Part shown: positions 12,020 through 53,198 of the stretch, one piece after another | How the letters are laid out: every line of letters begins with the position of its first letter | Numbering within the stretch: the stretch's first letter is position 1 | Assembly: GCF_016464385.1 (NCBI RefSeq) | Contig: NZ_JADMLH010000004.1 | Coordinates: forward strand, 310,001 to 374,000 | DNA length: 64,000 bases | Reading direction: 5' to 3' | DNA from: Nucisporomicrobium flavum | GTDB lineage: Bacteria > Actinomycetota > Actinomycetes > Mycobacteriales > Micromonosporaceae | Program-made: the position numbers and the translations under genes | The notes under the pieces: generated by a model | What the model saw: only the letters and a program-made list of their open reading frames with translations | Database searches by the model: none | What the model was told of the DNA's origin: nothing

Positions 12020-12906
12020 CCACCGTTTCCGCACCCGCGCCCGGCAAGCGACGCCCCCGGGAGATCGGCCGCGCGCCGCAGGACACCCGCGGCAACTGGC
12101 GCACGTACCTCGCGCTGACCGCGTTCCTGCTGCTCTCGGCGTTCCCGCTGTACTGGATGTTCGTGATCGCCACGAGCACCGACGAGGCGGTCTCGCAGAC
12201 GCCGCCGTCCGTCGTCCCGGGCAACCAGCTGATGACGAACCTGCGCGAAGTCTTCACGATGCAGGACGTCTACTTCACCGCGTCGCTGATCAACAGCTTC
12301 ATCGTCGCGGCCGTCGTGACCGTATCGACGCTGTTCTTCTGTTCGCTGGCCGGGTTCGCCTTCGCCAAGCTGCGCTTCAAGGGCCGCGACCCGCTCATGA
12401 TCGTCGTGATCCTCACCCTGACCGTGCCCAACCAGCTCGGCGTGGTGGCGCTCTACATCCTCATGGGTAAGCTCGGCTGGAACGGCACGCTGCTCGCGGT
12501 CATCGCGCCGTTCCTGGTCAGCGCGTTCGGCGTGTTCTACATGCGCCAGTTCATCCTGCACGCCGTACCCGACGAACTGGTCGAATCGGCCCGGATGGAC
12601 GGGGCGCTGACGCTGCGCGTCTACTGGAGCATCATCGTGCCGGCGATCCGGCCGGCGCTGGCGGTGCTCGGGCTGCTGACGTTCGTGGCGACGTGGAACG
12701 AGTTCCAGTGGCCGCTGATCACGCTGAACGGCACCGAGTTCCCGACCTCGATGGTCGCCCTCTCCGACCTCGCGAGCGGCAACTACGTCATCTACCGGCG
12801 GGTGCTCGCGGGCGCGTTCATGGCCACCCTTCCGCTGCTGGTTCTGCTCGTCATGGGCGGACGGCAGATCGTCCGGGGAATCATGGAAGGCGCCGTCAAG
12901 TCTTGA
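12016..12906 (+). CDS. Sugar ABC transporter permease (MalG-like)
   Basis: This 296-residue permease partner of the preceding gene has a cytoplasmic N-terminus, six transmembrane helices and the EAA-type loop (ESARMDGALTLRVYWSIIVP, about residue 195). The ATG overlaps the previous stop as ATGA with GGAGGAGG upstream, so translation is coupled. It should form the heterodimeric channel of the importer. The beta-mannosidase gene follows after nine bases, behind a GAGGAG ribosome site. Confidence 0.92.
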   Translation: MTTVSAPAPGKRRPREIGRAPQDTRGNWRTYLALTAFLLLSAFPLYWMFVIATSTDEAVSQTPPSVVPGNQLMTNLREVFTMQDVYFTASLINSFIVAAVVTVSTLFFCSLAGFAFAKLRFKGRDPLMIVVILTLTVPNQLGVVALYILMGKLGWNGTLLAVIAPFLVSAFGVFYMRQFILHAVPDELVESARMDGALTLRVYWSIIVPAIRPALAVLGLLTFVATWNEFQWPLITLNGTEFPTSMVALSDLASGNYVIYRRVLAGAFMATLPLLVLLVMGGRQIVRGIMEGAVKS

Positions 12907-12914
12907 GGAGCGAT

Positions 12915-15308
12915 GTGACCTCGTACCTTCCCCTGCACGAAGGCTGGACCCTCAGCGGCGGCGACGTCTCCGGCGTCGCCGCCGCCGTGCCCGGCTGCGT
13001 GCACACCGACCTGCTCGCCGCCGGCCGCATCGAGGACCCGTACCTCGACGAGAACGAGAAGAAGCTCGCCTGGATCGGCCGCACCGACTGGGAGTACCGG
13101 ACCACCTTCCGGTACGAGCCCGGCGACGGCCGCGCCGACCTGGTCTGCGAAGGCCTCGACACGGTCGCCACGGTCACGCTCAACGGCGTCGAGCTGGGCC
13201 GCACGTACAACATGCACCGCGGATACCGCTTCGATGTCCGTGAGCTGCTGCGCGCCGGCGACAACGAGCTGAGCATCCGGTTCGAATCCGCGTACTCGTA
13301 CGCCGAGGCGCAGCGGGACCGGCTCGGCGACCGGCCGAACGCGTACCCGGAGCCGTTCAACTTCATCCGCAAGACGGCCTGCAACTTCGGCTGGGACTGG
13401 GGACCGACGCTGGTCACCGCCGGCATCTGGCAGCCGATCGGCCTGCACCGCTGGTCGACGGCCCGGCTCGCCGAGGTCCGCCCGCAGGTCACGGTCGCGG
13501 ACGGCACCGGCACGGCCGAGGTCCGGGTCCGCGTCGAGCGCGAAACCCCCGGCCCGGTCACGGTCGCCGCCACGATCGCCGGCGAGCGGGTGGAGGTCAC
13601 CACCGAGGACGACGAGGCCGTTGTGACGGTCACGGTCGCCGACCCCGCGCTCTGGTGGCCCATCGGGTACGGCGACCAGCACCGTTACGACCTCGACGTG
13701 ACCCTGAGCGGCGCGGGCGGCGAACCGCTGGACTCGTGGAGCCGCAAGGTCGGCTTCCGCTCGGCCCGTGTCGACACCACGGACGGCGCCTTCACCGTGG
13801 TCGTCAACGACGTACCGATCTTCGTCCGCGGGGTCAACTGGATCCCCGACGACGTGTTCGCGAACCGGGTCACCCGCGAGCGGCTCGAGACCCGCTTCCG
13901 GCAGGCGCTCGACGCGAACGTCAACTACCTGCGCGTGTGGGGCGGCGGCCGGTACGAGTCCGAGGACTTCTACGACCTCGCCGACTCGCTCGGCCTGATG
14001 GTGGGGCAGGACTTCCTGTTCGCCTGCGCGGCGTACCCGGAGGAGGAGCCGTTCGCCACCGAGGTCGCAGCCGAGGCGCGGGAGAACGTCGTGCGGCTCG
14101 CCTCGCACCCGAGCCTGATGATGTGGACCGGCAACAACGAGAACATCTGGGGTCACGAGGACTGGGGCTGGAAGCAGGACCTCGACGGCCGTACGTGGGG
14201 CGCCGGCTACTACTTCGACGTGCTCGCCGGCATCTGCGCCGAGGAGGACCCGAGCCGGTTCTACTGGCCCGGCAGCCCCTGGTCCGGGCGCGAGGACAAG
14301 CACCCCAACGATCCCGCGTACGGCACCACGCACATCTGGGACGTGTGGAACACCGACGACTACGCCAAGTACCGCGAATACCGGCCGCGCTTCGTGGCGG
14401 AGTTCGGCTACCAGGCGCCGCCCGCGTACGCCACCCTGCGCCGGGCCCTGTCCGACGACCCGCTCGCCCACGACTCGCCCGGCATGCGCGCACACCAGAA
14501 GGCCGGCAATGGTGACGCGAAGCTGCAGCGAGGGCTCGACGCCCACCTGCCGCAGCCCCGCGACTTCGACGACTGGCACTACCTGACGCAGCTCAACCAG
14601 GCCCGCGCGCTGTCGCTGGGCATCGAGCACTTCCGGTCGCTGCGGCCGTCCTGCATGGGCGCGATCATGTGGCAGCTCAACGACTGCTGGCCGGTCACCT
14701 CGTGGGCGGCGGTCGACGGCGACGGCCGCAAGAAGCCCCTCTGGTACGCGCTGCGCCGCTCCTTCGCCCCCCGCCTCCTCACGGTGCAGCCGCGCGACGG
14801 CGGGCTCGCGCTGGTGGCGGTCAACGACTCCGCGCAGCCGTGGGTGCTGTCGGCGACGGTGTCCCGCCGTACCCTCGCGGGGGTCGTCGAGGCCGAGGTG
14901 GCGCTCGGCGCAACCGTCGCACCGGGCGCGGCCACGACGCTGCCCCTGCCGGCCGAGCTCGCGACCGCCGGCGACCCGACGGCCGAGGTGTTGGTCGCGG
15001 AGGCGGGCGAGCAGCGCACCTGGTGGTTCTTCGCCGAGGACCGCGACGTCGCCTGGCCGCCGGCCAAGTACGACACGACGGTCACCGCGGCGGGCACCGA
15101 AACGCACGTGACGGTCACGGCACAGACGATCCTGCGGGACGTCACCCTGCAGGCCGACCGCCTCGACCCGGCCGCGGAGGCCGACGAGGCGGGGGTCACG
15201 CTGCTGCCGGGGGAATCGGCGACCTTCCGGGTACGAGGTGCGGCCGCGCTGGACCCGGCCGCACTGACCGCCCGGCCGGTCCTGCGCTGCGTCAACGACC
15301 TGGCGTAA
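12915..15308 (+). CDS. Beta-mannosidase, glycoside hydrolase family 2
   Basis: This 797-residue enzyme removes terminal beta-D-mannose from manno-oligosaccharides. It has an N-terminal jelly-roll sugar-binding domain, an immunoglobulin-like domain (about 190-290), a TIM-barrel catalytic domain (about 290-600) and C-terminal Ig-like domains. The acid/base Glu is in WTGNNEN and the nucleophile Glu in RFVAEFGY. WDWGP and MHRGYRFDVR in the N-terminal domain are typical of the mannosidase branch rather than of beta-galactosidase. There is no signal peptide, so it acts in the cytoplasm on imported sugar. GTG at 12915 follows GAGGAG; the ATG two bases earlier is out of frame and meets a stop immediately. 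It identifies the upstream importer as probably a manno-oligosaccharide system. Its 3' end overlaps the convergent MetRS gene by 17 bases. Confidence 0.92.
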   Translation: MTSYLPLHEGWTLSGGDVSGVAAAVPGCVHTDLLAAGRIEDPYLDENEKKLAWIGRTDWEYRTTFRYEPGDGRADLVCEGLDTVATVTLNGVELGRTYNMHRGYRFDVRELLRAGDNELSIRFESAYSYAEAQRDRLGDRPNAYPEPFNFIRKTACNFGWDWGPTLVTAGIWQPIGLHRWSTARLAEVRPQVTVADGTGTAEVRVRVERETPGPVTVAATIAGERVEVTTEDDEAVVTVTVADPALWWPIGYGDQHRYDLDVTLSGAGGEPLDSWSRKVGFRSARVDTTDGAFTVVVNDVPIFVRGVNWIPDDVFANRVTRERLETRFRQALDANVNYLRVWGGGRYESEDFYDLADSLGLMVGQDFLFACAAYPEEEPFATEVAAEARENVVRLASHPSLMMWTGNNENIWGHEDWGWKQDLDGRTWGAGYYFDVLAGICAEEDPSRFYWPGSPWSGREDKHPNDPAYGTTHIWDVWNTDDYAKYREYRPRFVAEFGYQAPPAYATLRRALSDDPLAHDSPGMRAHQKAGNGDAKLQRGLDAHLPQPRDFDDWHYLTQLNQARALSLGIEHFRSLRPSCMGAIMWQLNDCWPVTSWAAVDGDGRKKPLWYALRRSFAPRLLTVQPRDGGLALVAVNDSAQPWVLSATVSRRTLAGVVEAEVALGATVAPGAATTLPLPAELATAGDPTAEVLVAEAGEQRTWWFFAEDRDVAWPPAKYDTTVTAAGTETHVTVTAQTILRDVTLQADRLDPAAEADEAGVTLLPGESATFRVRGAAALDPAALTARPVLRCVNDLA

Positions 15309-46358: not shown

Positions 46359-46490
46359 GCAACCTCCCTGTATCGGCCTTCAGTATCCCGGTGGAAGCCC
46401 GTCCGGTCCGGTTCCGGTGGGCCAGGATGTCGCAGTCATGATCACAAACCGCGTGGCGGCCGCGCCCGGTGTGGTGCGATGCTGGGCCGC

Positions 46491-46637
46491 GTGCCCGACG
46501 ACCTCCAGGTGAACGAGCGGCTGACCATCCCGGCCGCCGAGCTGTCGTGGCGTTTCTCCCGCTCCGGCGGCCCGGGCGGCAACACCACCGACTCGCGGGT
46601 CCGGCTTTCCGCAAGGGGGACCTCATGGCGGAGGTAG
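46491..46637 (+). pseudogene. 5' fragment of an arfB-like gene
   Basis: From the GTG at 46491 the frame encodes 48 residues that match the start of the complete arfB copy just downstream. The shared core is PxAEL(S/N)WRFSRS-G-PGG...NTTDSRV. Where the family has GGQGV, this fragment reads GGN, so the catalytic Gln and two neighbours are missing. After SRVRLS the similarity stops and a TAG follows within 12 codons. Its GC-rich codon use is like the host genes, unlike the complete copy. It is best seen as the left remnant of the original arfB; the right remnant lies at about 52.2 kb. Confidence 0.8.
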
Positions 46638-47047
46638 TGATTCGGCCCGGTCTCGCCATCCCGGAGGCCGAACTGAACTGGCGTTTCTCCCGTTCCAGCG
46701 GGCCGGGTGGTCAGGGTGTCAATACGACCGACTCTCGGGTTGAGTTGTCCTGGAACCTGCTCGCCTCCAGCCTGCTCTCACCCGCGCTGAAGGAGCGGGC
46801 GGTTGAGCGGCTCGGCAGCCGGCTGATCGACGGCGTCATCACCATCACGGCGTCCGAGCACCGCTCCCAGCTCCGCAACCGCGAGGCCGCCGAGGCCCGC
46901 CTCGCCATGCGGGTCGGTGAGGCCATCGCTGCCCCGCCCCGCCAGCGCCGCGCGACAAAACCCACTCGTGGTTCAGTCGAGCGCCGCATCGGTGAGAAGA
47001 AGCGCCGAGCCCAGATCAAACGCAACCGCCGCAGCGACGAAGACTGA
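46625..47047 (+). CDS. arfB: Alternative ribosome-rescue factor / peptidyl-tRNA hydrolase ArfB-like
   Basis: This 140-residue protein hydrolyses peptidyl-tRNA on stalled ribosomes. It has the release-factor GGQ motif (SGPGGQGVNTTDSRVEL, about residue 27) and the Lys/Arg-rich C-terminal tail (RRIGEKKRRAQIKRNRR) that enters the empty mRNA channel. The ATG at 46625 overlaps the end of the arfB fragment. Its codons (GTT, GAG TTG, AAT ACG) are less GC-rich than those of the fragment and of neighbours, suggesting that this copy arrived with the accessory segment. Confidence 0.9.
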   Translation: MAEVVIRPGLAIPEAELNWRFSRSSGPGGQGVNTTDSRVELSWNLLASSLLSPALKERAVERLGSRLIDGVITITASEHRSQLRNREAAEARLAMRVGEAIAAPPRQRRATKPTRGSVERRIGEKKRRAQIKRNRRSDED

Positions 47048-47412
47048 AGCAATCTCTTATCCCGATCTTCGGGAGCGTGCAGAAGTATCGCGATACGGGC
47101 GGTGTTTAAGTGCGTTCGGGGTCTTGCGGGGATCAGTCGGAGTGAAGATGGACGGCCTAGGCGACAATAGAAGTCGATGAAGAGGTCGCGTCTGAAGCTG
47201 AGCTGGGTAGATCTGATCTTGTTCAGCGATTCGGCGGTGACGAGATCGTTTTGACGTTGCGCATCCTTTCACCGAGTTTCGCGCCATGCCAGACCTTGCG
47301 GCTTCCCATCCGCTGCGGAGGCCGGACCGCCCATTTGACGGGGTGCACCAGGAGCGGCGCTTGCTGCTCGCAGCGGCGGGGATAAGGCTGCAACCGATGC
47401 TCGTCCGGCGCG
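47048..47412. other. Gene-free segment after arfB, comparatively AT-rich
   Basis: No gene can be supported in these 365 bases. A perfect palindrome GTATCGCGATAC lies at about 47086-47097. Base composition is less GC-rich than in flanking core genes, which fits the accessory nature of the region. Confidence 0.5.
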
Positions 47413-48672
47413 CTACGCGCTGGCGCTGGCCTCGCCCTCGAATGCATCGACTTCTGGCACCCCGGGAAATTTGGCCAGCTTGGCGCGGAGAAGACGGAGG
47501 CGCTCGGAGACCCGCGAGCTTCCGGCCTTCCGCGAGAGGCGAAGCGCTCGCGTAGCCGCTTCCGCCGCGCGCTCGACTTCGTTCGCCTGAAGTAGGGACT
47601 CGGCAAGCCAGGTCATATAGAGCGCGGTCTCCCGCCCCGTCTCGTCGCTGTACCCGGCGGTCGCCCTCTCCAAGATGGGGACCGCTCGCAGCGGGCGTCG
47701 TAGCTGCGTCCAAACCCGTCCGGCCATGATGTCGATCTCGCCCTCGTCGAGCCAGTAGACCCAGATAGGATCGTCGGCCGGCTGGCGGTGTTCGTACTGC
47801 TCCTCGACTGTGCCGAGGGCGCGTTCGGCGGCGGTCACGTCACCTACCTGGGCCTCGGCCCAGGCCACTCGCTCCGCGAGGAGCGCCTTCGTGGTCGCGG
47901 TAGCCACACTGCGAGCGCCGGCGTAGGCCGACTTCGCGAGCGTCACGGCCTCTCGTGCGTCACCGACGTTCGCGACCTGGTAGGCGAGCGACGAGAGATT
48001 GTTCGCCGCACCCGCGACGTCTCCGCCCGCGTGAGCTGCCCGCATCCCAGCGAGGTAGTAGCGCTCGGCCTCGGCATGATGACCAGCGTCGCTGGTGACC
48101 CATCCGGCTACCTGGGCCAACTCGCCGACGGCGACGAGAAGCCGTTTGCCGATCTCCTCGGTGTAGGCGGCATCGCGGAGCAAAGCGGTTGTAGCCGCTA
48201 GCTCAGCGGTGACCATCGCGTGTGTGTCCTGCCCACCGACGTAGTCGTCGAGCTTGCGGAGCCGGTGAACACGCTTCTCGACCTCCTGGACCTGGGCCAC
48301 GCCGATACGGCGGCCTGCCCGAGTGGCGGTCACCTGCGGCGGCTCGGCGATCAACCATTGATGTGCCAGGGTGAGGGCGTTTTCCGCTGTAGGCGTCGTT
48401 GTGAGCACCGCGGCTGCCAGCAGCTCGGAGTCCTTCGGCCGCCACATCCCGTGGTGCAGCTCCCACGGCTCGCCGTTCGCTTCGACCAGCGAGACCAGTT
48501 TCCCGCCTGCTTCGTAGACATCGTCGAGCGCCTGAGCGATGAGAGGCGTGGGCGGACGCTTGTCCGCTTCGACTCGGGACAGATGCCCGGAATCGAGGTG
48601 TGCGCGCCGAGCAGCCTCGCGGAGTGACATGCCACCGCGCAGGCGCCGAGCAGCTTGCCCGAACGTTTCCAC
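47413..48672 (-). CDS. XRE-family regulator with TPR-like helical C-terminus
   Basis: This 419-residue protein has an N-terminal helix-turn-helix (QAARRLRGGMSLREAARRAH, then LDSGHLSRVEADKRPPT, residues about 6-45) and a long helical region (about 150-415) with TPR-like repeats, for example AGHHAEAERYYLAGMRAAH and AERALGTVEEQYEH. Such regulators often sense a peptide or partner protein. The GTG at 48672 has a strong GGAGGGGG ribosome site. It is divergent from the small-protein/JmjC/kinase genes and is their likely regulator. Confidence 0.85.
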   Translation of the reverse strand: METFGQAARRLRGGMSLREAARRAHLDSGHLSRVEADKRPPTPLIAQALDDVYEAGGKLVSLVEANGEPWELHHGMWRPKDSELLAAAVLTTTPTAENALTLAHQWLIAEPPQVTATRAGRRIGVAQVQEVEKRVHRLRKLDDYVGGQDTHAMVTAELAATTALLRDAAYTEEIGKRLLVAVGELAQVAGWVTSDAGHHAEAERYYLAGMRAAHAGGDVAGAANNLSSLAYQVANVGDAREAVTLAKSAYAGARSVATATTKALLAERVAWAEAQVGDVTAAERALGTVEEQYEHRQPADDPIWVYWLDEGEIDIMAGRVWTQLRRPLRAVPILERATAGYSDETGRETALYMTWLAESLLQANEVERAAEAATRALRLSRKAGSSRVSERLRLLRAKLAKFPGVPEVDAFEGEASASA

Positions 48673-48723
48673 GGTTTCCCCCTCCGTGCTGCCAGGGTGC
48701 TGCCAATGCTGCCAGGTGGCGCA

Positions 48724-48972
48724 ATGCAGCATCGGGAGGAAAAGCGCGCATGGTGGCGTCGCGTTTTGGTCTTGCGTCGGCGACGATGCACCTGCGGCCT
48801 GCCCTGGCCCTGCTTCGAGGCATGGATGGCCAAGGGCAAAGAAGGCGAGGAATTCCGCGCATTGACGGCCCTCAGCGACCCGGTAAGAGCGCCGATAACC
48901 ACCGCCCCAACGTCCCGAGCTGGCAGACAAACACCATGCCGTTGCTCCAGATCGGGCGCGCGGGCGCGCTGA
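48724..48972 (+). CDS. Small Cys/Trp-motif protein
   Basis: This 82-residue frame starts at an ATG. Its first half reads AWWRRVLVLRRRRCTCGLPW followed by PC, a CxCG...WPC pattern also found in the broken gene just downstream. The second half is low-complexity. The motif looks like a small metal-binding knuckle. I give it moderate weight because the motif recurs and the gene sits in the divergent promoter region of the cassette; the coding signal alone is weak. Confidence 0.4.
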   Translation: MQHREEKRAWWRRVLVLRRRRCTCGLPWPCFEAWMAKGKEGEEFRALTALSDPVRAPITTAPTSRAGRQTPCRCSRSGARAR

Positions 48973-49008
48973 CTCCGGCGCAGGAGCGGCGTTCGCGAGG
49001 GGCGCGTG

Positions 49009-49267
49009 ATGCTGATACCTCGTACGGAGCACCACGGCGAGCGCCCTACGTGGGGACTGCCGAGTCTGCGGCCAGCCGTGGCCGTGCGCTACCGCCAACG
49101 TCGAGCTGGCCGAGCAATACCAGCGATTTCCGCACGGCCTGTCGATCGTCGTCGGGTCCTTTCTGATCGAAGCTATCGACGACTGGACCGCCGGTCCGGG
49201 GATGCCGCCGCCCGATCTCTATTAGCGATTTCTTGGCTGGGCCGAACCGCCGGGGTTTGCGGCATGA
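49009..49267 (+). pseudogene. Broken small CxxC-xxxx-WPC protein gene (frameshift and in-frame TAG)
   Basis: Starting at the ATG, one frame gives MLIPRTEHHGERPTW. One base further on, in a GGGG run at about 49056, the frame changes to give DCRVCGQPWPC followed by ATANVELAEQYQRFPHGLSI, VVGSFLIEAIDDWTAG and ending DLY. A TAG (49223-49225) then interrupts RFLGWAEPPGFAA, whose TGA overlaps the ATG of the next gene as ATGA. The two lesions, joining sensible sequence on either side, indicate a decayed gene or a sequencing error in the G-run. From memory, similar C..C....PWPC proteins in actinomycetes are sometimes labelled flavin reductase, without good reason. Confidence 0.55.
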
Positions 49268-49521
49268 CAACCGAGGAACCGCCGAAAAGAACCCCCGGTC
49301 TGCTCGGCCTTCTGCTCGACGCGTTCGATGCGCCGCCCGTGGTGAGGGGCGGGACAACCCTGGACCGCGTTGCGTGGATTCACATGCAGGAGGGCCGAGC
49401 CGTCATCGAGCTGGAGGCCGATGACATGGCGGTTGCTGCTGAACAGCTCGTGCTCGACAGCGTCACGGCGGCGAAGGTGAGGGCCGCTCGATCGGAAGCA
49501 GGGCAGCCCGCCCGGACGTAA
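49264..49521 (+). CDS. Small hypothetical protein of the JmjC cassette
   Basis: This 85-residue soluble protein has the N-terminus MTTEEPPKRTPGLLGLLLDA and an acidic helical C-terminal half (EADDMAVAAEQLVLDSVTAA). Its ATG overlaps the stop of the preceding (broken) gene and it lies 27 bases upstream of the JmjC gene, so it is in the same operon. I do not recognise it. Size and position would allow a regulator, a chaperone or a substrate of the oxygenase. Confidence 0.6.
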   Translation: MTTEEPPKRTPGLLGLLLDAFDAPPVVRGGTTLDRVAWIHMQEGRAVIELEADDMAVAAEQLVLDSVTAAKVRAARSEAGQPART

Positions 49522-49548
49522 CCACTCCCTACACCCCCGGAGGTTGGA

Positions 49549-50496
49549 ATGTCCCTATCGATGTTGTTCGACGAGGCCACGGTCACCGAGATGATGACCG
49601 CTTGGCCGGCGAAGCCTGCGCTTCACACACCGTCTGACGGCAGCCGCCTGCCCGGCGTCGTCAACGTGGCTCTCATCAACGGTTACCTCGACACCGGTAC
49701 CGCGCCCGCAGAGCAGCTCCTCGTGATCAAAGACGGAGCGGCGCTGCACTCCCGGGCGTACACGACGGACGGCTATCTCGACCCCGGCAAGGTCGCGAAG
49801 TGGCGGGGCCGGGGCTACACGATCCAACTGCGCAACCTGCATCGCTGGTGCCCGGAGGTGCATGCGATCTGCGCGGCGATGCAGCACGAGACCGGATACG
49901 GCACGTACGCCACCGGCTTCGTCACCCCGGCCGGCGGCCAGGGTCTGCATCACCACTGGGACCAGAACATGGGCTTCATCAACCAGCTCGCCGGGCGCAA
50001 AACCTGGCAGATCTGGGAGCCCGGGGTCGAGGAACCGCACCGCGAGCAGTTCGCGTCCAACACCTCGCCGGGCAGCGACGTCCTCGACCGCATGAAGTCG
50101 ATGCGACCCGACTTCGAGTTCGACCTCGGTCCCGGCCAGATCCTGGTGCTGCCGCGCGGCTGGATGCACAACCCGCACGCGCGCAGCCAGACCGAGGAAA
50201 GCGTCCACGTGACGTTCGTGGCCCGCGAGCGCACCGGCTACTGGCTCGCCGGGAAGCTGGCTCAGGCTGCACTCGCCTCGACCCCACTGCGGCGCGTCAT
50301 CTCGCCCGCCAGCGTCGTCGACCCCGCCGCCTTCGCCGCACAGGTCACCGAAGCACGCGACCTGCTGACGGACTGGCTTACCGGCGCCGATACCGCGGCA
50401 CTGGCCACCGAGCTGCTTCAGGCGGCACGCACCGAACCGAACGTCGACTACGTCTCCCACGCGCCGAGTCAGATCGGCCACCAATCGACCCGTTGA
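49549..50496 (+). CDS. JmjC/cupin-fold Fe(II)/2-oxoglutarate-type oxygenase
   Basis: This 315-residue protein has the ribosomal-oxygenase-like JmjC signature: HHHWDQN supplies the iron-binding HxD (His136, Asp138), GRKTWQIWEP (about residue 149) the 2-oxoglutarate-binding Lys, and LPRGWMHNPH (about residue 201) the distal His. A C-terminal helical part follows. Members hydroxylate residues of proteins or peptides. An AGGTTGGAATG-type start with GGAGG spacing supports the ATG. Its neighbours, an 85-residue protein and a protein with a Cys-Cys-Pro tail, are plausible substrates. Confidence 0.88.
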   Translation: MSLSMLFDEATVTEMMTAWPAKPALHTPSDGSRLPGVVNVALINGYLDTGTAPAEQLLVIKDGAALHSRAYTTDGYLDPGKVAKWRGRGYTIQLRNLHRWCPEVHAICAAMQHETGYGTYATGFVTPAGGQGLHHHWDQNMGFINQLAGRKTWQIWEPGVEEPHREQFASNTSPGSDVLDRMKSMRPDFEFDLGPGQILVLPRGWMHNPHARSQTEESVHVTFVARERTGYWLAGKLAQAALASTPLRRVISPASVVDPAAFAAQVTEARDLLTDWLTGADTAALATELLQAARTEPNVDYVSHAPSQIGHQSTR

Positions 50497-50554
50497 TCCG
50501 GGATTTCACCGGCGCATCAGGCGTCGGCGATCCATACACCCCCAAGGAGGAGTC

Positions 50555-51031
50555 GTGACGCTCACGACCGCACTGCCGGTCCAGGCCGACAAGGACCCGC
50601 AAGCCCTCGTCGACCCCGAGACCTTCGACAAGCTCGCCGAGTTCTTCGCCGCCCGCCAGGAGGTCACCAAGATCTACGCCCGGCGGGCCGTCGGGCAGAT
50701 GCTGCTCATGCTCAAGGCCCACGCCGACTCGCAGCACGACCCCGACTTCGGCCGGCTGCTGCCCGACGGCCGCTCGTACCGCGTCGTCCCGACCGAACCG
50801 GTCGACGCGGCCTGGCACGCGTCGTTGCAACACACCGAGGCGTACGCCGCCGCCTGCGAGCAGATCGCGGGAGGCTTCGTGCACCACGTGCCGATCCTGA
50901 CCGAGGGCATGGCGGACGGCTCCTCGCTGGAGTACACCCGTCAGGCGCTCAAGGCGACCGGCTACTACATCGACCCCGAGTTCTGGGACGGCGAGGCGAA
51001 GTCCTGCTGCCCGCCGAACCCGGGCATCTGA
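50555..51031 (+). CDS. GRDP/DUF1399-like protein with Cys-Cys-Pro-Pro C-terminal tail
   Basis: The 158-residue protein contains a VDAAWHASLQHTEAYAAACE motif followed by GGFVHHVP, resembling the VDxxWHxxxxxTxxY...FxHH.P signature of glycine-rich-domain-like (DUF1399-type) proteins; the conserved His residues could bind metal. It ends with a distinctive SCCPPNPGI tail after a polar linker. It follows the JmjC gene by 58 bases with an AGGAGG ribosome site and is followed by the kinase after 15 bases. Function is unknown; the tail could be a modified peptide or a metal-binding end. Confidence 0.7.
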   Translation: MTLTTALPVQADKDPQALVDPETFDKLAEFFAARQEVTKIYARRAVGQMLLMLKAHADSQHDPDFGRLLPDGRSYRVVPTEPVDAAWHASLQHTEAYAAACEQIAGGFVHHVPILTEGMADGSSLEYTRQALKATGYYIDPEFWDGEAKSCCPPNPGI

Positions 51032-51046
51032 AAGGGCAACTGATCG

Positions 51047-51835
51047 ATGCGCACTGACTGGGCCACGTTGCCCGAGGCCGTCACGAAGGAAGTCGCCGAC
51101 CGAGTCGGCGGTTGCCGCATCTCGCCCGCCGCGACCGGTGACCACGCGGAGATCGCCGCAACCGTCACCGGGCCAGCCGGGAAGGTGTTCCTCAAGGCGG
51201 CTCATTCTGACTTCGGGGTTAGGTCGTTGCGCTTCGAGCTGCGGGTGAGTGAGGCCGTCAGTGGGTCTTACTCACCCGCGGTCCGATGGCACTTCGAGGC
51301 GGCCGGCTGGCTGGCCGTGGGGTTCGAGCACTGCGACGGCCCGCACGCCGACCTGTCGCCGGGCAGTCCCGATCTGAACCTTCTCGGGGAAGCGTTGACG
51401 GCGCTGGGCAAGACTCAGGCGCCGGACGTCGGGCTGTTCAGCCCGAAGGGGCGGCTCGGATTCGAGCACCCGGCGATGGAAGGCGACACCCTCGTGCACA
51501 CCGACCTCGGCCCGGCCAACCTCATCGTCACCCCGGACGGCCTGCGGATCGTCGACTGGGCGATGGCGACCAAGGCCGCACCGTGGGTCGAACTTGCCAT
51601 CCTCACCCAGTGGCTGATCGGCAGCGGCCACACACCCGAGCAGGCTGAACAATGGTTGGCACGGTATCCCGCATGGCGCGAGGTCGGCCCTGATGTCCTC
51701 GACGACTTCGCGGCGAAGAACGCCGCGAAGTGGGCATCTAAGGCCCAGCCGAACTCGCCGGCCTGGATGCACGATCTCGCGGACTGGACCGGCCAGTGGT
51801 CGGATCATCGATGCAAAGGCGACCGTAGGGTTTAA
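51047..51835 (+). CDS. Aminoglycoside-phosphotransferase-fold kinase
   Basis: This 262-residue APH/choline-kinase-fold protein has the catalytic loop HTDLGPANLIVTPDG (about residue 152; HxD....N) and the metal-binding IVDWAMAT (Asp at about 172). The N-terminal nucleotide loop is short. Members phosphorylate small molecules; nothing shows that this one modifies an antibiotic. It closes the cassette operon. Its C-terminal 40 codons recur, decayed, 280 bases downstream, so at least two related copies once existed here. Confidence 0.85.
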   Translation: MRTDWATLPEAVTKEVADRVGGCRISPAATGDHAEIAATVTGPAGKVFLKAAHSDFGVRSLRFELRVSEAVSGSYSPAVRWHFEAAGWLAVGFEHCDGPHADLSPGSPDLNLLGEALTALGKTQAPDVGLFSPKGRLGFEHPAMEGDTLVHTDLGPANLIVTPDGLRIVDWAMATKAAPWVELAILTQWLIGSGHTPEQAEQWLARYPAWREVGPDVLDDFAAKNAAKWASKAQPNSPAWMHDLADWTGQWSDHRCKGDRRV

Positions 51836-52009
51836 CTCTTGCAGGTCCGGTGGAAGCTCGGAGAAATGCTCTGCGGAGTCGGAAGCGCCATGCTGACGGC
51901 CACGGGCGAGGGGCAGCCTTTGCCCTTGCAAACGTAACGAGCGGGTCGGCGCGGATCGCTGGGTCGATGCGGGTAGAGGAGCGCGCCGCACGGGTCGCAG
52001 ATCGCGCTG
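51836..52009. other. Non-coding gap after the APH-fold kinase
   Basis: No gene is supported here. A minus-strand frame with several Cys pairs crosses this stretch, but it is partly antisense to the kinase remnant that follows. Confidence 0.4.
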
Positions 52010-52129
52010 CCGAACGCCGCCAAGAGGGCGCAGAAGGCGCAACCGGGCGCCCCGCCCTGGATGCATGATCTCGCCACCTGGACCGGCCAGTGGTCAGATG
52101 ACCGGCGCGAAGGTGGACGTAGGTCTTGA
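52010..52129 (+). pseudogene. C-terminal remnant of a second APH-fold kinase
   Basis: The frame reads PNAAKRAQKAQPGAP then PWMHDLATWTGQWSDDRR and ends GGRRS before TGA. It aligns without gaps with the end of the intact kinase (KNAAKWASKAQPNSP, AWMHDLADWTGQWSDHR, GDRRV). Only about 40 codons remain; upstream of them the similarity ends abruptly. This is a trace of gene loss or of recombination at the right edge of the accessory segment. Confidence 0.75.
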
Positions 52130-52151
52130 CTTGCGCGCCCGTTAGGGTGCG

Positions 52152-52227
52152 GCTCGGTGTAGCGCCGCATCGGCGAGAGGAAGCGTCGCTCCCCGTCAAG
52201 CGCAACCGCCTTGGAGAGATGGAGTGA
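52152..52227 (+). pseudogene. 3' remnant of the original arfB
   Basis: The sequence GCGCCGCATCGGCGAGAGG and what follows encode (G)SV-stop-RRIGERKRR and then, after a one-base shift, VKRNRLGEME-stop. This matches the end of the complete arfB copy, GSVERRIGEKKRRAQIKRNRR. It carries an in-frame TAG and a single-base deletion. Its terminal TGA overlaps the GTG of the next phosphotransferase gene as GTGA, preserving what looks like the original operon junction. Together with the 5' fragment at 46.5 kb it brackets the inserted cassette. Confidence 0.75.
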
Positions 52228-53198
52228 GCGGCGTGCCGGTCGTGGAGATGCTGTGGGAGCCGGACGACCCCTACGACGCGCTCGCCGGACGGTTCGGCTT
52301 CGATGATGGGCCGGCGGCCGGTCGCTGGGTCGCCGACATGGTGGAGAAGCACTGGGATCTCCGCCCGGACTCCTGCGAGCGGATCGTGATGAGCGGGGGC
52401 AACGCGCTGGCGTGGGTCGGCACCCCGTCCGGCCGGCTGCTCGCGAAGTGGTCGGTGGTGCCCGAGCGTTTCGCGCGGCTGGCCGAGGTGGCGCGGCTGA
52501 CGAGCTGGTTGGGCGGGCAAGGGCTGCCGGTCTCCGCACCGCTTCCCACGCGCGACGGCCGGCTCCAGGTGGAGACCGGCGGCGTCTCGATGGGGCTGCA
52601 GCGGGTGATCGGGGGCGACCTTCTCGACACCGGTGACCCCGGACAGGTGCGGGCTGCCGGAACGCTGCTGGCCCGCCTGCAGGATGCGCTGGCGGCGTAT
52701 CCGTACGCCGATCGGCTCTCCGGGCCAGCGGTCGGGTCCCGGCCGTTGACCGAGCAGATCACCGGCTGGCTCGACGCGCGCGCCGGACATCTGCCGGCGG
52801 CGGCCCGGGAGGGGTTGCGGGGGATGGTCGCCGCTGCGCCGCCCGACCGGCTGCCGCGGCAGCTGGTCCACTTCGACTTCCGCGCCGCCAACATCCTGTG
52901 TGCCGGCGGTGAGATCGTCGCGGTCCTCGACTTCGAGGAGGCCCGGCGCGAGCCCTCGCTCTTCGAGCTGGCCCGCGCGGCGGTCCTGCTCGGCACCCGC
53001 TACCACGACTGGGGGCCGGTGCCGGCCGAGGTTCGCGCGCAGTTCTTCGCCGGCTACCGGGCCGTACGCCCACTGACCCCGGCCGAGGCCTCCTGGCTGG
53101 AGCTGCTGGTGTTGTGGCAGGCCATGGAGATGGTGCCGCCCGGCGACGACCCGACCGGCTGGGCGGCGTCCGCGCTGAGCCTGCTGCGGCGCCCCTGA
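52224..53198 (+). CDS. Phosphotransferase family protein (APH fold)
   Basis: This 324-residue kinase-fold protein has the catalytic loop LVHFDFRAANILCAGG (about residue 213) and the metal-binding VLDFEEARREPSLFELAR (about residue 232). It is not closely similar to the APH-fold kinase of the cassette. The GTG at 52224 overlaps the stop of the arfB 3' remnant and has GGAGAGATGGAG upstream, so it was probably co-transcribed with arfB before the insertion and now depends on a new promoter or on read-through from the cassette. Substrate unknown. Confidence 0.85.
   Translation: MSGVPVVEMLWEPDDPYDALAGRFGFDDGPAAGRWVADMVEKHWDLRPDSCERIVMSGGNALAWVGTPSGRLLAKWSVVPERFARLAEVARLTSWLGGQGLPVSAPLPTRDGRLQVETGGVSMGLQRVIGGDLLDTGDPGQVRAAGTLLARLQDALAAYPYADRLSGPAVGSRPLTEQITGWLDARAGHLPAAAREGLRGMVAAAPPDRLPRQLVHFDFRAANILCAGGEIVAVLDFEEARREPSLFELARAAVLLGTRYHDWGPVPAEVRAQFFAGYRAVRPLTPAEASWLELLVLWQAMEMVPPGDDPTGWAASALSLLRRP

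Follow-up and report, generated by a model that had tools for sequence, protein, structure and literature searches.

A degenerate element, most likely of the large-serine-integrase family, in the arfB gene of Nucisporomicrobium flavum

The split arfB gene

We analyzed a 64,000-nucleotide stretch of the Nucisporomicrobium flavum genome (hereafter the window), in which arfB, a gene of the GGQ-domain rescue hydrolase family, is represented by a 5' fragment, an intact copy directly behind it, and a decayed 3' remnant that lies beyond a set of unrelated genes (Table 1). The intact copy scores 153.5 bits against the NCBIfam ArfB model NF006718 (cut-off, 100) and is 91-96% identical to the ArfB of seven other genomes. 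Window proteins were scanned with Pfam and NCBIfam, and three of the cassette proteins also with PHROGs. For comparison, 20 related arfB loci of 15 kb each were fetched and compared with the window, and the type of arfB start was scored in 60 of 67 genomes of the genus, including the window's own (G000; other G-numbers denote other genomes of the same genus), with the element type defined by the start MA[DE]V..RPG. A tree of the flanking gene M16 covers 54 genomes; six have no M16 in the fetched stretch, which is also why G053 is absent from this comparison.

Table 1. Features of the arfB locus, in window coordinates
Feature	Position	Strand	Evidence
ATGCT box 7 nt ahead of native GTG; likely -10 of the native arfB promoter	46479..46483	+	AT[GC]CT conservation
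Native arfB 5' fragment	46491..46600 (end 46600/46601)	+	tblastn 4.6e-10; aligned to G054 native arfB
CGGGTC, presumed crossover core at left junction	46596..46601	+	junction shared with G047
Element left end CGGCTTTCCGCAAGGGGGACCTC, with Shine-Dalgarno at 46613-46620	46602..46624	+	pattern search of genus genomes
Intact element-type arfB	46625..47047	+	NCBIfam ArfB NF006718, 2.8e-45
Cargo module, also present in G040 (at arfB) and, up to ~51803, in G054 (different island)	47322..51887	.	blastn 92.6-94.5%
NsdA-family TPR/HTH regulator	47413..48672	-	NCBIfam NF053720 1.8e-75
Small gene broken by frameshift and stop; open in G040 and G054	49005..49264	+	comparison with G040 and G054
85-aa protein, no Pfam or NCBIfam match	49264..49521	+	weak PHROG matches of unknown function, best E 0.028
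JmjC_2 oxygenase-like protein (NO66/MINA-like)	49549..50496	+	PF08007 1.2e-17; PDB NO66 4e-11
158-aa protein, no family match (Pfam, PHROGs, NCBIfam)	50555..51031	+	relatives in 29 of 200 family genomes (E <= 1e-10)
APH-family kinase-like protein	51047..51835	+	PF01636 1.4e-11
Possible serine-integrase zinc-ribbon remnant	51886..52038	-	PF13408 E=0.01, below cut-off
Second, divergent APH 3' end	52001..52131	+	75.8% over 120 bp; 68% aa over 41 residues
Native arfB 3' remnant	52149..52227	+	contiguous with kinase in G054 alignment
Host-side APH-family kinase, directly 3' of arfB in G054	52224..53198	+	88.9% aa to G054

The nearest relative, G054 (98.4% identical in M16 and sister to the window's genome on the M16 tree, with support of 100/99), presents the empty site. 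Its arfB is uninterrupted and runs straight into a kinase gene homologous to the one at 52224. The left part of the window matches G054 up to CGGGT at 46600 and the match resumes at 52149; between these native arfB parts lie ~4.6 kb of cargo and the intact arfB. The 5' fragment reaches codon 39/40 of the native gene and, relative to G054, has suffered a 9-nt in-frame deletion that removed the Gln of GGQ and two further residues, while native codons ~40 to ~115 are missing from the window. The 3' remnant carries a TAG and a one-base deletion, both visible against G054, and its stop overlaps the kinase GTG as GTGA, as does the stop of the whole G054 gene. In a comparison of the window with the 20 fetched loci, this kinase was found in G000 and G054 alone, and it may itself be a leftover from the cargo of an earlier element.

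The pieces differ in origin. Compared with 60 genomes, the 5' fragment is closest to G054 (107 of 118 aligned columns, nine of the remainder being the deletion), and the window's own intact arfB ranks only 57th of 60 as a match to this fragment. The short 3' remnant has no clear placement, with G046, G047, G049, and G054 scoring alike. The GC content at third codon positions (GC3) is 0.95 in the 5' fragment and 0.91-0.95 in flanking genes versus 0.81 in the intact copy; in the cargo genes it spans 0.75-0.96, most falling between 0.75 and 0.87 and the 158-aa gene reaching 0.96. Foreign DNA with its own arfB thus split the native gene, as had been proposed in a sequence-only reading of the window from the two fragments, the lost Gln, the adjoining complete copy with its different codon use, the decayed 3' end, and the GTGA overlap. 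All of these observations held up in the comparison, as did, in G054, the expectation that relatives without the cassette have arfB directly before the kinase. The 5' fragment had been drawn too long, to 46637, although 46602-46624 is element end and not arfB, and the zinc-ribbon-like remnant, the second APH 3' end, and the broken gene at 49005-49264 had been overlooked. Two arfB starts side by side might also suggest a tandem duplication of arfB that then decayed, with cargo added later by chance, and the cargo module is indeed found at other sites. However, the rank of 57 among 60 means that the intact copy is no duplicate of the native gene, and this copy belongs to a clade common to 13 scattered genomes, so that we give duplication hardly any credence.

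A shared junction base and traces of a serine integrase

G030 and G047 also have an arfB 5' fragment just ahead of an intact arfB, with the same joining sequence as in the window. In all three genomes the left junction, CGSGTC/CGGCTTTCYGC..ATG (slashes mark junctions), lies at the identical base, with the core reading CGGGTC in G000 and G047 and CGCGTC in G030. When 60 nt of promoter are included, the window's fragment is nearest G054, that of G030 nearest G029, and that of G047 nearest G015; on the M16 tree, G054, G029, and G015/G031 are the neighbors of G000, G030, and G047, respectively. One junction base behind three different native 5' fragments indicates at least three separate insertions at this base and points to site-specific insertion. 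The left-end pattern occurs in 6 of the 67 genus genomes, each time directly before arfB (backwards control, 0), and a slightly different pattern occurs in 5 of 354 family genomes, all five inside the genus. The insertion point falls at the Arg-Val codons that directly follow the GGQ segment, codons 38/39 of the element ArfB and 39/40 of the native gene.

The right junction is seen in G020 as ...CCATGGC/CGGGTC/GAGCTG..., after which native arfB continues from the same codon on; this native 3' part is nearest that of the sister genome G018. A serine-integrase N-terminus (Resolvase, 2e-8; 60 aa open) lies 46 bp inside this junction on the minus strand, and G030 retains a 62-bp piece of the same integrase gene (88.7% DNA identity; by tblastn only E 0.002). 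The zinc-ribbon-like piece in the window lies in the interval from the cargo kinase to the arfB 3' end, a place that matches related elements, and it aligns weakly (E 0.12) to the corresponding region of an intact serine recombinase in G054. In phages (310 matching records) and plasmids (23 matching records), the G020 N-terminus found only serine recombinases below 60% identity, and it had no match in viral_contigs.

The sequence-only reading, having found no integrase, had favored homologous recombination of foreign DNA through arfB homology. It is true that arfB pieces stand on both sides of the cassette, that ArfB C-termini are mosaic, and that the window holds no intact integrase gene. However, a single-base junction would not be expected to recur through homologous recombination in three genomes whose 5' fragments are lineage specific, the sequence that follows the junction (CGGCTTTC..) is not arfB, and integrase remnants lie towards the right ends of the elements in G020, G030, and, weakly, the window. 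The repeated junction led us to reject homologous recombination as the entry route, and as an overall explanation we consider it very unlikely.

A proposed gene replacement behind the host promoter

We consider it most likely that the region from 46.5 to 52.2 kb is a degenerate element of the large-serine-integrase family that inserts into arfB and puts its own rescue gene in the place of the host's, under control of the host promoter. As we picture it from the compared sequences, the integrase would target arfB at the Arg-Val codons after the GGQ segment, with CGGGTC as the core; both the crossover point and the identity of the enzyme are presumed. The attP site would have been flanked by the start of the integrase and the element arfB; a single crossover would then put the element arfB behind the host promoter and leave the integrase and the native 3' end on the other side. 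The element arfB would replace the host rescue factor, and the host would thereby be spared. The NsdA-like regulator, JmjC oxygenase, 158-aa protein, and APH-like kinase would be carried along as cargo, and later deletions would have removed most of the integrase from the window, together with the central part of the native gene.

The promoter fits this scheme. In 43 of 47 native arfB genes the start codon is preceded, at a distance of 5-7 nt, by an AT[GC]CT box, which suggests that native arfB mRNA is leaderless. Of the 13 element genomes, 12 still have such a box 27-150 nt ahead of their element arfB, although the intervening, useless 5' fragment is eroded to varying degrees. Finding it within 160 nt in 12 of 13 compares with a resampled mean of 2.4 and a maximum of 6 of 13 (300 resamplings), and a longer form of the box is present in 11 of the 13 versus a mean of 0.1-0.2. 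The element arfB of the window has a Shine-Dalgarno sequence, AAGGGGGA. From this arrangement we infer that the host promoter probably drives the element arfB.

Several observations weigh against the proposed insertion by a serine integrase. Both junctions are intact in no genome seen: CGGGTC occurs at the left junction (G000 and G047) and at the right junction (G020), never at both in one genome, so the core rests on comparing different genomes. When the coding part is used alone, the assignment of two 5' fragments shifts, that of G030 scoring 185 with G053 versus 181 with G029, and that of G047 scoring 200 with G031 versus 195 with G015. One element genome, G022, is without the promoter box. 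The remnant in the window is sub-threshold, matches nothing but itself in the 67 genomes (E <= 0.001), and has no match in phages or plasmids. An intact integrase beside arfB was not found with PF07508 in 22 genomes (a search that also missed the intact G054 recombinase), with the G020 N-terminus in 67 genomes (E <= 1e-8), or when the fetched arfB stretches were searched by tblastn with the G054 recombinase. Two further points concern the trees. The distribution of the element type on the M16 tree is at the level of shuffled labels, and element ArfB C-termini are mosaic.

These trees need to be read with care. Element-type starts occur in 13 of the 60 scored genomes and native starts in 47, and the 13 element-type genes form one clade in the ArfB DNA tree (support, 100/99). 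On the M16 tree the element label requires 11 changes, of which at least 9 are forced by well-supported branches. However, shuffled labels require 11.8 on average, with 171 of 500 shuffles as low, and so the tree shows scatter and not a count of insertions. On a tree of codons 43-140 the label needs seven changes. G030 here joins G029, its native sister (99/94), and nine element genes share one group with five native-start genes (G027, G046, G052, G053, and G054). The simplest cause of these chimeric genes appears to be homologous recombination that acted later within arfB.

A search for the element ArfB elsewhere returned 51 plasmid and 3 phage records, nearly all below 60% identity, with one plasmid-collection record at 63%, and viral_contigs contained one weak relative. 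In other genera, 4 of 80 named loci (from 496 relatives) have more than one arfB match. Two of these, both from Corynebacterium (L123:14293-14706 and L130:10697-11110), contain, besides the intact arfB, another copy ~4-5 kb away that is truncated at its 3' end. Of the remaining two, one has two adjacent pieces of seemingly one gene and the other a gene interrupted by a run of N.

A mobile cargo and comparison with known elements

The cargo module is found at arfB in two lineages, those of the window and G040, and it also occurs at other places. In G054 it lies inside a ~13.7-kb stretch, where G000 has ~1.1 kb, and adjoins the intact serine recombinase mentioned above (546 aa; PF00239, 4.5e-18; L213:5672-12353). 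In G047 it stands beside an intact pirin gene, and a partly decayed copy is beside pirin in G045 (L214, L226); in G022 a remnant of the 158-aa gene lies at a distance of ~0.9 kb from pirin. The cargo is therefore able to move independently of the arfB insertion. Beyond the module in G047 lies a decayed pirin 5' fragment, which makes this a second cassette bracketed by a gene and its fragment (L214:7716-7860, 12701-13651). G017 has two copies of the module on two contigs (L219, L220), with identical match coordinates and scores. No defense function was indicated for seven proteins by PADLOC. Phage structural genes were not recognized among the window cassette proteins in the Pfam, PHROGs, and NCBIfam scans. 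Neither were genes for replication or conjugation, as in integrative and conjugative elements (ICEs) or their actinomycete counterparts (AICEs), by Pfam and NCBIfam (and by PHROGs for three proteins).

Such mobility raises the question of whether cargo and element came together, or whether the cargo entered an arfB locus already taken by an element. The second order of events would account for G042, whose element-type arfB lacks the cargo present at this place in the sister genome G040, and for G047, which has the arfB scar and yet its cargo at pirin. It also agrees with the divergent APH 3' end in the window, which looks as if it were a relic of another cargo copy. However, cargo lies inside the arfB brackets in two lineages, and loss by recombination explains G042 equally well. 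We think two events unlikely, although this is an alternative to be reckoned with, and favor a single element that brought both arfB and cargo.

Other integrating elements offer partial parallels. SXT/R391 ICEs insert site specifically near the 5' end of prfC and SXT does so with a tyrosine integrase (PMC3715440, PMC2791158); SXT is a conjugative element of ~100 kb. The likeness lies in the target, the 5' part of a translation-termination gene. SXT supplies a replacement 5' end of prfC, whereas the arfB element brings a whole gene at its end, has serine-type remnants, and targets arfB instead of prfC. Staphylococcal cassette chromosome (SCC) elements use a serine recombinase, keep their translation-related target rlmH functional, and build composite, accreting arrays. 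SCC, however, sits at the 3' end of rlmH, whereas the arfB insertion splits its gene in the first third and brings a full copy; the two are set apart here by target. The phage phiC31 has a large serine integrase and an attB with a short core in pirin, a conserved gene, and it is beside pirin that the same cargo module stands in G047 and, partly decayed, in G045. Unlike a phage of the phiC31 type, the window cassette encodes no recognized structural proteins. Passages in PMC6549336 on such sites concern mainly TG1 and R4. No report of arfB as an integration target was found in the literature searched.

With element-type starts in 13 of 60 genus genomes, arfB can be named as a recurrent attachment gene, and at this locus an element appears to have exchanged an entire conserved translation gene instead of mending just one of its ends. 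More tentatively, a family of actinobacterial mobile elements may take over a leaderless host arfB behind its promoter and provide a Shine-Dalgarno-led rescue factor belonging to the element lineage, so that a mobile-element protein would run ribosome rescue; recombination may then spread segments of element arfB into host genes. Caution is needed with ArfB trees in this genus, in which the histories of host and element are mixed. The integrase and its attB would be a pair worth recovering for Actinoplanes-type bacteria.

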